From positions 62,001 through 126,000 of the forward strand of contig JAFVBB010000018.1 in NCBI GenBank assembly GCA_017480225.1: a stretch of DNA of 64,000 nucleotides, written 5' to 3'. The position numbers were made by a program, and so were the translations under genes. Positions 7,211-60,881 of this stretch are shown here, piece by piece. The DNA comes from Bacteroidales bacterium (GTDB taxonomy: Bacteria > Bacteroidota > Bacteroidia > Bacteroidales > P3). Below the pieces are notes generated by a model, which saw nothing but the letters and a program-made list of their open reading frames with translations, was not told where the DNA came from and did no database searches. Within the stretch, counting starts at the first letter, position 1; every line of letters starts with the position of its first letter.

Positions 7211-7224
7211 CGTATTATCTGCGC

Positions 7225-7935
7225 TCACGCCATGTTGTGGAACACGTTCACCACATCGTCGTCGTTCTCAAGGCGCTCAAGCAGGCCGTTGACATCCTCC
7301 TGCTCCTCGGGCGAAAGCTCGCGCAGAGTCAACGGAATGCGCTCAAACTTGAAACTCTTTATCTCCAGCCCCTTCTCCTCCAGGAACTTTGAAATGTTGC
7401 CGTAGTTCTTGAAGTCGGCGGAAATAACAATCTCGTCCTCGTCGCGGAACACCTCGTCTATGTCGCAGTCGATAAGCTCCAGCTCCAGCTCGTCCATGTC
7501 AATGCCATCCTGCCACGCCACAGTGAATGTGCATTTGCGCTCGAAGAGGAAGTCGTTCATGCCCATCGTGCCAAGCTCGCCTTTCCCGCGGACGAAGGCA
7601 GCCCTCAGGTTGGCCACGGTGCGGGTCGGGTTGTCGGTGGCGGTCTCCACCACCACGGCCACGCCGTGTGGGCCTTTGCCGTCGTAGACGACCTCCTTGT
7701 AGTCCGACGTATCCTTAGACGTGGCGCGCTTTATTGCGCGCTCCACGTTCTCTTTGGGCATACTCTCGTTCTTCGCCGTCTGCATCAGCAGGCGCAGGCG
7801 CAGGTTTGCTGCCGGGTCGGGGCCGCCTGCCTTCACGGCAATCTCTATCTCCTTCCCGATGCGTGTGAATGTGCGGGCCATGTTGCCCCAGCGCTTCAGC
7901 TTGCGAGCCTTGCGGTATTCAAATGCTCTTCCCAT
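7225..7935 (-). CDS. yebC: YebC/PmpR family protein
   Basis: Family members are cytosolic proteins reported either as DNA-binding regulators or as translation factors that help ribosomes through difficult motifs. The 236 residues follow the family plan: RAFEYRKARKLKRWGNMARTF at the N-terminus, then IEIAVKAGGPDP, MPKENVERAIKRA, and the VYDGKGPHGVAVVVE loop. An acidic C-terminal domain follows. The usual MAGHSKWANI opening is replaced by MGRAFEYRKARKLKRWG, a variant typical of Bacteroidota. The gene appears monocistronic. Confidence 0.93.
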   Translation of the reverse strand: MGRAFEYRKARKLKRWGNMARTFTRIGKEIEIAVKAGGPDPAANLRLRLLMQTAKNESMPKENVERAIKRATSKDTSDYKEVVYDGKGPHGVAVVVETATDNPTRTVANLRAAFVRGKGELGTMGMNDFLFERKCTFTVAWQDGIDMDELELELIDCDIDEVFRDEDEIVISADFKNYGNISKFLEEKGLEIKSFKFERIPLTLRELSPEEQEDVNGLLERLENDDDVVNVFHNMA

Positions 7936-8353
7936 CTTATTTGTGTTTATTGATTTCCGATTTGTTTGCAGAGCCTCAACGCGGCAAGTTCAGGTTTATT
8001 GTGCCGCAAGGCGACAAAATCTGCCAGCAGACCCACCCATCAGGCACAGCCCTGCGTGGCAAAGCGCCACTTTGTTAATTTATAGATACTTGCAATAAAC
8101 GGTCATTGTATTTGACTGAAAACCAGTCCGAATGAGCATTAAGGCAATGTCAACACCGTCTGTTCTTCGATTGTTCTCCGATTGTTCTTCGATTGTTCTT
8201 CGATTTAGCATCGGAGAACAATCGAAGAACAATCGGAGAACAATCGAAAAACAGGCGGCCTTTTACCGAAGTAGTTGCATTTTGATGTTGAATCTACGAC
8301 GCACTTTTTTCTTACACGGCGCAATAATTAGGCAGTGAAGGCGTTTATTCGCT
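7936..8353. other. 418-bp divergent intergenic region with one family A palindrome
   Basis: This gap separates yebC (leftward) from the thioredoxin-fold gene (rightward). Its right half holds the 93-bp palindrome described separately. The left half is ordinary non-coding sequence. I see no complete TTTG/TAnnTTTG promoter for either gene and no RNA gene. Confidence 0.7.
8161..8253. repeat. Family A palindrome, copy 1 (4+4 units of 11 bp)
   Basis: Four tandem copies of an 11-mer (consensus TGTTCTTCGAT; the second reads TGTTCTCCGAT) are followed by the 5-nt loop TTAGC and four copies of the complementary 11-mer. Total length is 93 bp. Arms pair over 44 bp with a G-U pair in the innermost unit and a mismatch in the outermost. 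The left flank is TCAACACCGTC, shared with the other two copies at 13641-13733 and 60789-60881. Confidence 0.95.
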
Positions 8354-13640: not shown

Positions 13641-13733
13641 TGTTTTTCGATTGATGTCCGATTGTTCTTCGATTGTTCTTCGATGTAAAATCGAAGAACA
13701 ATCGGAGAACAATCGAAGAACAATCGAAGAACA
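13641..13733. repeat. Family A palindrome, copy 2 (inverted orientation)
   Basis: Same 93-bp plan as copy 1: four 11-bp units, 5-nt loop (GTAAA), four 11-bp complementary units. It is in opposite orientation, since the shared flank appears on the right as GACGGTGTTGACA. The order of the TTC and TCC unit variants differs from copy 1, and the second unit from the left reads TGATGTCCGAT. It lies in the 288-bp gap upstream of glmM. Confidence 0.95.
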
Positions 13734-13795
13734 GACGGTGTTGACACGGACCCAATGCGGCCTGTCAGGCTTTTGGGTGGGCGCTTTCAGGTGCG

Positions 13796-18994: not shown

Positions 18995-19010
18995 CGTCCT
19001 TTCAAAAAAA

Positions 19011-19365
19011 AATAGCGCCAGCCTGTAAGCCGGGTTCTGTCGTGTCCTATCATCAATCTAGGGCCGCCGTCGCCGACGGCCTCTATCAACCTACCCCCCG
19101 GCAACGGACGAGCCAGTCCTTAAATGCCGGTATACATGGTCTTTCAGCCCATGAGGCTTGCCATCGCGCCTGTCACCAGGACGCGTCGTGGGCTCTTACC
19201 CCGCGTTTTCACCCTTGCCCGAAGGCGGTATGTTCTCTGTGGCGCTTGCTGTCACCGGTTTGTTGCCGCGCCGGTGCCTTCCCGTTAGGAAGCATGGTGG
19301 CTCGCGCTGCCCGGACTTTCCTCCCACCGGCTTGGCGGCGGGCGATAGGATAGCCGGCGCTATTC
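19011..19365 (-). ncRNA. rnpB: RNase P RNA, bacterial type A
   Basis: The catalytic RNA of RNase P, about 355 nt on the minus strand. The 5' end (19365) reads GAATAGCGCCGGC and pairs with the 3' GGCGCTATT. Diagnostic conserved segments are GGAGGAAAGTCCGGGC near the 5' end and ACAGAACCCGGCTTAC near the 3' end. The stem closing the molecule is followed by TTTTTTTT on the minus strand (18-nt window just left of 19011), which serves as terminator. A good promoter lies 7 bp upstream of the 5' end. Confidence 0.97.
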
Positions 19366-23641: not shown

Positions 23642-23740
23642 AACTACTTGTCACAAACTACTCTTCATCTTGTCATCGCCTACTTATGTAGCGGTTGATT
23701 AGGCGATGGGTAGTAGTTGAGTAGGAGATGAGTAGGAGTT
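23642..23740. repeat. Family B palindrome, copy 1
   Basis: Read on the minus strand, the well-preserved arm is AACTCCTACTC, ATCTCCTACTC, AACTACTACCC, then ATCGCCT: three 11-bp units and a part unit, preceded by TAGACC. A 19-nt loop follows, then a degenerate arm in which the innermost 7 bp pair exactly and the outer 11-bp units match at 4, 7 and 8 of 11 positions. Related copies are at 38289-38365 and 50035-50122. Confidence 0.88.
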
Positions 23741-24030
23741 GGTCTATACTTAATGTTGATTTACAGCTGTTTATGGTGTGTTCTTTTATACCCCGCGGTT
23801 CTGTTTTGTAATCTGTTGGATTTTAGGTAGTTGTGATTTGGGCTTGAAAACGGGCTTTGCTGTTGTGGCTGCGGCTCTGCCGGCGGCAAGGCCACGTGTG
23901 CGGCGTATGCCTCGCGACGGGGGGCGACATGGGTCGGCAAGTGCCTGTAAATGCTGGCCATGGGTGGCAATGAGCGGCGGGCTGTTGATAAAAATATATT
24001 CGTGCGTGCATCCATGTGAAAAAAAATGCG

Positions 24031-33061: not shown

Positions 33062-33132
33062 TTGTCCCACAAGGATTCGAACCTTGGCAAGCAGAACCAA
33101 AATCTGATGTGCTACCATTACACCATGGGACA
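33062..33132 (-). tRNA. tRNA-Gln (anticodon TTG)
   Basis: A 71-nt cloverleaf on the minus strand: acceptor TGTCCCA/TGGGACA plus discriminator A, D arm around GTGTAATGGTAGCAC, anticodon stem CAGA/TCTG with loop TTTTGGT (anticodon TTG), and T arm CAAGGTTCGAATCCTTG. CCA is not encoded. It stands alone. Confidence 0.96.
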
Positions 33133-38166: not shown

Positions 38167-38288
38167 CAAAAAAAAATCCACACCGCGACACAAATATTGA
38201 ACCCCGCATCCGAAACATCGCAAGGGGCGGAAACAGGCCTAAAAAAGCCAATTTTGAAATGCTTGAAAATCAATGCGAAGACCATATC

Positions 38289-38365
38289 AACTCCTACTCA
38301 ACTACTACCCATCAACTACTCATCACCTACAGAAGCAGTAGATGAGTAGGTGATGGGCAGTTGTT
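38289..38365. repeat. Family B palindrome, copy 2
   Basis: Left arm: AACTCCTACTC, AACTACTACCC, ATCAACTACTC, ATCACCTAC (three 11-bp units and one of 9), loop AGAAGCA. The right arm consists of GTAGAT, GAGTAGGTGAT and GGGCAGTTGTT, which pair with the inner left units at 10 of 11 and 8 of 11 positions. The innermost unit is shortened by 3 bp. It lies between divergent nfo and the ABC exporter gene. Confidence 0.88.
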
Positions 38366-38539
38366 GATAATTGATTAATATGGATTTATGGTTGCCGCAG
38401 CGCTTCATTTCCGCGCTTTGCGAGCCTCCTTGCGAGGCTGTTTTTTTATTTTGGGCGCAGGGCGCAATAATTCGGGGCAGGCGTCGTTTGTGTGTCAAAG
38501 AAGTAGAATCCACAGCGCGGGCGCGACCCGCTGACGACG

Positions 38540-49717: not shown

Positions 49718-50034
49718 ATTAATTTTTCAACATTGTGTTATCGGTGATTATTTTATGTTGATTTCCAGTTTGTATGCGATTTCTTTTTATGCTTCACTTT
49801 AATTGTCGGCATTCCGGAAAGTCTTTCTGTAGCCTTTCCCGGCTGGAATGCACATCTTTCTGTGCTGTCTGGCATGGGAACGGCTTTGATGTGGCGCGCC
49901 CCTGGCCGCAATACGAGTTGAATATTGTCATATTATTGGTATTCAGTGTTTTGTAATGCCTGAATACTGGGTCATAAACTGTCCAAAATTTAACCCCTGC
50001 ATAAAATACTGCAAATCAGCCTAAAGGATAGACC

Positions 50035-50122
50035 AACTCCTACTCAACTCCTACTCATCTACTACTCATCGCCTACCCAACTGGTACTTTTGTAGGCGAT
50101 GAGTAGTAGAAGAATAGATGAT
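50035..50122. repeat. Family B palindrome, copy 3
   Basis: Left arm: AACTCCTACTC twice, ATCTACTACTC, ATCGCCTAC (three 11-bp units and one of 9), preceded by TAGACC. A 15-nt loop follows, then GTAGGCGAT (perfect pairing over 9 bp), GAGTAGTAGAA (10 of 11) and GAATAGATGAT (7 of 11). It lies between divergent genes. Confidence 0.92.
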
Positions 50123-60678: not shown

Positions 60679-60788
60679 CCGGTTAACATCTGGTTCCCAA
60701 TCATTAAGGTGATTGTTTTCGCTTGTCTGTGCGTGCAACTGCCTCATTTTCAGTGCCGACAAGGTGTCAAGTCCGTATCAACACCGTC

Positions 60789-60881
60789 TGTTCTTCGATT
60801 GTTCTCCGATTGTTCTTCGATTGTTCTTCGATTTGCAATCGAAGAACAATCGGACATCAATCGAAGAACAATCGAAGAACA
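60789..60881. repeat. Family A palindrome, copy 3
   Basis: Four 11-bp units (TGTTCTTCGAT, TGTTCTCCGAT, then TGTTCTTCGAT twice), loop TTGCA, four complementary units of which the second is ATCGGACATCA. Length 93 bp, as in copies 1 and 2. Left flank TATCAACACCGTC; right flank ACCGCCCCTGGC, which resembles the outer flank of copy 2. Confidence 0.95.

Follow-up and report, generated by a model that had tools for sequence, protein, structure and literature searches.

We identified a small basic protein, encoded on contig C7 of the genome from which the 64,000-nucleotide stretch analysed here (the window, C11:62001-126000 of a 2.05-Mb assembly that is 97.6% complete) was taken, as the candidate partner of the 93-bp palindromes in this stretch, and we consider it likely from sequence comparison that this protein binds such arrays sequence-specifically and probably controls its own gene, and that its sites have spread. 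Each palindrome would offer it eight sites, four facing four. The N-terminal part of the protein would read each 11-bp unit, residue 25 with position 10 and residue 49 with position 5, and as 11 bp per unit is about one B-DNA turn, successive units would present the same face of the DNA. The founding array would lie between the promoter of the gene and its start codon, so that the protein probably regulates its own expression; copies of the array would then have spread to about 140 places in the genome, so that a single protein would have roughly a thousand sites.

The comparisons point to an undescribed protein-DNA pairing in gut bacteria, in which changes in the protein track single-base changes in the array units. 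Further, we lean towards seeing here a genomic system of a new class in Bacteroidota. The new family and DUF6266 would form a superfamily in which the genes have their own phased 11-bp (sometimes 10-bp) arrays, read by a residue-base code, and in which the occasional escape of an array would fill the chromosome with sites for one protein, with no transposase of its own and with a unit that differs by species. No description of this array-protein system was found in the open-licence PMC literature, which is no proof that it is unpublished. If right, our reading would mean that an uncharacterised family, and probably also its remote relative DUF6266, has its first known function in the sequence-specific binding of arrays, would provide dozens of natural protein-array pairs for reading a recognition code, would represent a route other than RAYT/REPIN to a large chromosomal site population matched to one resident gene, and would explain one repeat family of this genome, probably a second.

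Family A arrays in the window and across the genome

All three palindromes previously described in the window were recovered at their positions with the loops given for them, each with four units, a 5-nt loop and four inverted units in 93 bp (Table 1). With at most one mismatch, TGTTCTTCGAT has 24 matches in the window, 22 of them inside arrays (100 dinucleotide shuffles: mean 0.65, largest 4). Across the whole assembly, the 16-mer GATTGTTCTNCGATTG has 320+349 = 669 matches at the same tolerance and its reversed control none, and we estimated about 140 family A copies in the genome (~138, scaled from 87 16-mer matches in a sample with 18 dispersed copies).

Table 1. Palindromic arrays of families A and B in the window and their long flanks. 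The strand of the 8161..8253 array was chosen so that the long flank is at its 3' end, matching the leader of the C7 gene.
Feature	Position	Strand	Details
Family A array	8161..8253	-	4+4 units, loop TTAGC
Long flank of the 8161..8253 array	8116..8160	-	CTGAAAACCAG at 8116-8126, TCAACACCGTC adjoining the array
Family A array	13641..13733	+	4+4 units, loop GTAAA on the + strand
Long flank of the 13641..13733 array	13734..13769	+	GACGGTGTTGACACGG...
Family A array	60789..60881	-	4+4 units, loop TTGCA
Long flank of the 60789..60881 array	60743..60788	-	CTCATTTTCAG at 60743-60753
Family B array	23642..23741	+	11-bp AGTAGGAGTTG-type units, left arm diverged
Family B array	38287..38379	-	missed by the anchor search
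Family B array	50034..50118	-	

The earlier note had taken the length to be always exactly 93 bp, which holds for all three copies of the window; genome-wide, 14 of the 18 dispersed copies read in about 370 kb are 93 bp long and four are 82 bp long, i.e. one unit fewer, and the spacings of the 16-mer matches suggest a few copies elsewhere with one unit more. The length of family A is nearly, not strictly, constant. The many different lengths that the same note associated with neutral drift are not seen in this genome; between species, unit numbers differ. Unit variants that had seemed shuffled are not in free order, many arms running T-C-T-T from the outside inwards. The outer flank TCAACACCGTC is indeed common to the copies, mainly on one side, and the two flanks of a copy are unlike each other, one being long and the other short (CCAGGGCCGTC type). 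By our rough gene calls, the three window copies overlap no called ORF and are intergenic as first described, seven of the 18 dispersed copies (none of these in the window) lie inside called ORFs that are mostly short and of doubtful coding, and the orientation of genes around dispersed copies shows no preference. The minus strand of the window also carries an RNase P RNA (19010-19361) and a tRNA (33062-33132), both ordinary.

A protein family linked to the arrays

When 99 genomes of the genus were searched with the 16-mer, arrays with other units were found, two of them directly upstream of homologous ORFs. Neither of these first two linked proteins has a hit in Pfam; one of them matches NCBIfam far below the cut-off. 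Homologues are present in 56 of the 99 genomes; the one in the genome of the window lies outside the window at C7:124316-125011 on the minus strand, and a profile search found no second homologue there. Its product is an uncharacterised, positively charged protein of 245 aa with no Pfam or PDB match. The 5' leader of the gene contains a family A array of 93 bp with 4+4 units, spanning about -157 to -65 relative to the start codon, and a TAnnTTTG box lies ahead of it at -216; with this arrangement, autoregulation by the C7 protein would be expected.

The N-terminal 65 residues have a net charge of +9 to +16 in all 29 proteins compared, and the N-terminal part of the protein (net charge near +12) is predicted by a structural model to form strands followed by a helix. 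No known DNA-binding fold was recognised in the linked protein, and Pfam gave no match in the 29 members to a MerR-type DNA-binding domain or, at E up to 5, to a transposase family. PADLOC found no known anti-phage defence for two proteins, and a tblastn search of 50,697 phage and 72,556 plasmid records with the protein of this genome gave no match. At three loci (L075, L077, L079) the gene downstream of the new-family gene resembles smpB by eye, a neighbourhood that hints at vertical inheritance of the locus.

The linkage was scored in a scan of named genomes, in which 221 relatives were found and 80 kept, with titles all of Bacteroidetes/Bacteroidales MAGs, including Prevotella and Bacteroidaceae. 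Two of these 80 loci were left out for masked bases, leaving 78 evaluable, and the 80 partly overlap with the 30 loci of the genus homologue search because the same genomes occur under two names. A period-11 array lies within 280 bp upstream of the gene in 75 of the 78 relatives, with units that differ, and 68 of the 75 also have a good palindrome; of the remaining three, two have the palindrome only and one has neither. The period-11 controls gave zero downstream, zero in shuffles and 0/98 in control ORFs of the same loci, and at the same threshold the other periods from 5 to 30 were found upstream in at most one of 78, except the multiple 22 (52). A TAnnTTTG box precedes the array by no more than 150 bp in 55 of 74 genes (5% in shuffles).

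Dispersed arrays match the resident gene

The unit of family A has 669 matches in its own genome (G000), 310 in G075 and 87 in G076, and at most eight in each of the other 96 of the 99 genomes. G000, G075 and G076 each have a gene whose leader array has exactly this unit, and only these three of the 99 are known to do so. Similarly, the TTGTCCGCTTG unit has 302 matches in G069, 43 in G075, 19 in G048 and 13 in G002, all of which have a gene bearing such a unit, 1-7 matches in 13 other genomes and none in the genome of the window. Large numbers of dispersed arrays are found only in genomes that have a resident gene with the unit in question. G067 has a gene with the TTGTCCGCTTG unit, yet only the two matches of its leader and no dispersed copies; therefore a leader array can exist without dispersal. 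Both the linkage and the unit matching are solid, and the leader array would be the source of the dispersed copies.

Residue-base covariation

For the covariation analysis we used the 82 gene-linked arrays that passed an axis filter. Placed in register on the palindrome axis, they share the consensus WTGTNCRNTWG, with C at position 6 in 96% and T at position 9 in 91%. Protein identity correlates with unit identity (r 0.53, 0/999 permutations), as would be expected also from common ancestry by itself. Among single columns, residue 25 was conspicuous for its link to unit position 10, and residue 49 for its link to position 5. Lys25 occurs with T10 in 39/39, and Arg25 (n=42) with A10 in 36, C10 in 5 and T10 in 1; Ala49 occurs with A5 in 19/20, and Gln49 with C or T at position 5 in 55/56 and with A5 in 1/56.

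A tree was built from 97 proteins of the training and held-out sets, with columns 25 and 49 left out. On it, all independent contrasts were concordant for K/R25 (9/9) and for Q/A49 (4/4), two tip pairs serving both sets. Among 125 columns tested alike, only residues 25 and 49 were perfect, the next best reaching a net 6 of 14, and seven of the ten best-covarying columns fall in residues 1-65, which hold 55 of the 212 variable columns. A sign test of the 9/9 contrasts across 125 columns is not significant (0.49). A third position, E/Q38 with G3, was rejected (0/5 contrasts).

The held-out set consisted of 42 genes (40 fetched plus L205 and L206), of which 15 passed filters that were set after seeing their table; the 27 that were dropped include many without an array that could be put in register, and three that duplicate training genes. 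Held-out residue 49 followed the rule (A5 in 7/7 with A49 and in 0/5 with Q49), and held-out residue 25 was not significant (T10 in 1/1 with K and in 1/10 with R, p 0.18). Six of the dropped genes (L296, L298, L299, L301, L309, L310) fit both rules, and two, L308 and L318, break the one for position 10. That rule is also broken by L206, which combines R25 with T10 and comes from one of the three genomes with the family A unit, and the C7 protein itself has Gly at residue 49. The case for covariation rests on rank, on the counts and on held-out residue 49.

Because of this covariation, direct reading of the unit is the best explanation, and we infer that the protein binds the array directly. 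Among the roles first suggested for the palindromes, the protein-binding array has gained support from the candidate linked protein and from the putative residue-base pairs.

Mobility and relation to known repeat systems

A more doubtful explanation is a miniature transposon of the MITE/REPIN type, in which a transposase would move a non-autonomous element that has the arrays as its ends, with the linked protein as a passenger or as that enzyme. It is in line with the roughly 140 dispersed copies, which are conserved in their one long flank, and with a locus that is free of copies in two relatives. Two genes that are separated in the window, at 7224-7950 and from 14371 (14396 in G075), adjoin each other in G076 and G075, with gaps of 57 and 68 bp and no array in them; the window segment 8984-13508 is found in G076 as one piece elsewhere, without arrays in 9 kb, and in G075 as two pieces. 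In the genome of the window, a family A copy lies near each junction of the segment 7950-14371, and insertion of copies, recombination between copies, or both would explain its rearrangement. The recombination site proposed in the earlier note was not borne out, the observation closest to it being that one segment placed elsewhere in a relative is bounded by two copies.

CGTC immediately outside 27 of the 38 family A array ends also recalls the CGTC-tagged REPs, insofar as these are described in PMC3733652, but at the gene-linked arrays CGTC is found at 1/75 left and 0/75 right ends. Moreover, the genome of the window has no match to the Y1/HUH (RAYT) transposase PF01797, Y1 being the transposase family that was searched; among relatives, G069 has three matches, G076 one and G075 one below threshold. 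Target duplication was not established, the ends of the copies are not sharp (flanks of 18 copies), and the status of a passenger would leave the covariation unexplained. The non-autonomous mobile element suggested for the palindromes is thus upheld in part, by dispersed copies that match the leader of a resident gene and by one locus without them in two relatives, but no mobilising enzyme of the Y1 type was found.

Several known systems resemble the arrays in part. According to the parts of PMC9304148 that describe them, the operators of CarH, a MerR-type photoreceptor repressor, are made up of 11-bp repeats, three or four in tandem, which lie near the promoter under control and are bound by a single protein, as is predicted here; they are direct repeats (nnnnTnnACAn) at operators of specific genes, whereas the arrays here are palindromic and dispersed in about 140 copies. 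REPINs are short palindromic repeats that replicate in the genome, and RAYT transposases have reportedly co-evolved with them (PMC8049555, PMC8266576, in the passages on this point). The arrays likewise form a dispersed population in many intergenic copies (669 matches, about 140 copies), but their linked protein is not a Y1/HUH transposase, PF01797 is missing from the genome, and the repeat is an array of 11-bp units. The BrickBuilt MITE of Porphyromonas gingivalis, as outlined in PMC4596501, likewise lies between genes in a Bacteroidetes genome and is built around a core of tandem repeats, with leader and tail parts, in 19 copies; it differs in its 23-nt unit and in having inverted repeats only at the ends, and the passages on it name no linked protein. 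The CGTC-/GTAG-tagged REPs share with the arrays the high copy number and the short palindromes, and differ in that they are palindromes of 20-40 bp, as far as PMC3733652 details them, and that the gene-linked arrays of the relatives are without the tag. The TAACTGA heptamer repeats are short intergenic tandem repeats, many just before start codons, and are proposed binding sites, but they have a fixed 7-bp unit, are nearly all direct and come with no linked protein family in the account that PMC4679880 gives of them. By analogy, the array system would in its working join an 11-bp operator array of the CarH type to a population of the REPIN type; the tests made place it in neither group.

DNA or RNA as the target

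Eleven bp is about one turn of B-DNA, and about one A-form turn too. An action of the leader hairpin in the mRNA, with the protein binding the transcript and controlling translation and the dispersed copies being by-products, appears improbable to us. The array is probably transcribed in the gene leader. It is located between a promoter-like box and the start codon in 55/74 genes, its arms form long hairpins, and in the outer 22 arm pairs G-U is commoner than A-C (140 vs 102 of 1892). In the inner 22 pairs, which are the best paired, G-U is however the rarer (53 vs 84 of 1892), as it is in the 18 dispersed family A copies (9 vs 19 of 792). The arms of L104 and L105 pair poorly yet keep inverted units, some relatives in the wider family have period 10, dispersed family A copies occur in all gene orientations, and no Rfam match was found at the arrays. 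The deficit of inner G-U pairs, the poorly pairing arms and the period-10 relatives favour duplex DNA as the putative target, with one turn per unit, and the structured RNA considered in the earlier note is not favoured. We therefore infer DNA rather than RNA as the target of the protein, and helical phasing would be the reason for the 11 bp.

Neutral drift, i.e. functionless 11-bp arrays produced by slippage and gene conversion, is scarcely credible: units are alike within an array and unit number varies somewhat, but drift predicts neither the upstream-only linkage to one protein family (75/78; controls 0/98), nor period 11 alone, nor a consensus common to 82 arrays, nor the residue-base covariation.

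The wider family and family B

None of the 29 members of the linked-protein family matches PF19781 (DUF6266) at E up to 5. In a phylum sample of 296 genomes, the one distant match besides the genome of the window is a DUF6266-like protein, L212 (19.2 bits, cut-off 23.4), with which the family profile aligns over 139 columns (hhalign probability 95.4%, E 1.9e-8); judged by profile similarity, the new family is a remote relative of DUF6266 through this intermediate. PF19781 occurs in 26 of 395 Bacteroidota genomes versus 72 of the 99 of this genus, with up to 29 matches per genome, and DUF6266 is greatly expanded in this genus. No paper on DUF6266 / PF19781 was found in the open-licence PMC literature.

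Upstream of 41 DUF6266 genes from the phylum searches (threshold 0.66), period 11 was found in 18, period 10 in seven, period 9 in three and periods 12 and 13 in none; the 41 include three genes of the genome of the window, and one of the arrays of these is a dispersed family A copy. For the 30 best-scoring DUF6266 genes of the genus the counts were six for period 11, seven for period 10 and at most three for others except period 20 (seven), and for 19 other DUF6266 genes 12 for period 11, three for 10, six for 22, five for 14, four for 7 and none for 12, 13 and 15-17. The new family thus shows a strong link to arrays, and DUF6266 a partial one. Period 10, not 11, is seen upstream of some DUF6266 genes, such as L221 (C14 of the genome of the window) and L337 (G075). 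At L226 (C18 of the genome of the window) a second DUF6266 gene of this genome is preceded, at a distance of about 350 to 240 bp, by a family A array, possibly a chance dispersed copy. A different conserved 5' leader, which resembles GTGAGTCAAGAGGATGCGCGCGACCTTGCGACAC and follows a CATCTTTGCATCGTCTTTC-like start, is common to many of the best-scoring DUF6266 genes in the genus (L261-L274).

Also in the window is another array family, built alike but more diverged (family B), with CAACTCCTACT-type units near 23.7, 38.3 and 50.1 kb. An anchor search, which missed the 38.3-kb copy, found 15 family B copies in about 370 kb, and 11 of the 15 lie between divergent genes, compared with 26 of the 80 gaps that measure 150 bp or more (p 0.004, from rough gene calls). 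Family B units occur about 178 bp before the start of a DUF6266 gene of the same genome (C11:235626-236177, outside the window), which is one of three DUF6266 genes there, and a gene of G012 that is similar to it by eye is also preceded by family B units. By chance, a family B copy would fall within 300 bp of any of the three DUF6266 genes with a probability of about 3.6%; family B probably, though not firmly, pairs with a DUF6266 gene.

The motif CTGATTTNCAG occurs in the longer flank of family A and family B copies; six of its 20 sites adjoin family A, eight adjoin family B and six adjoin neither. In these long flanks a CTGATTTNCAG-like motif (e.g. window 8116-8126) is seemingly repeated about 45-50 bp farther out.
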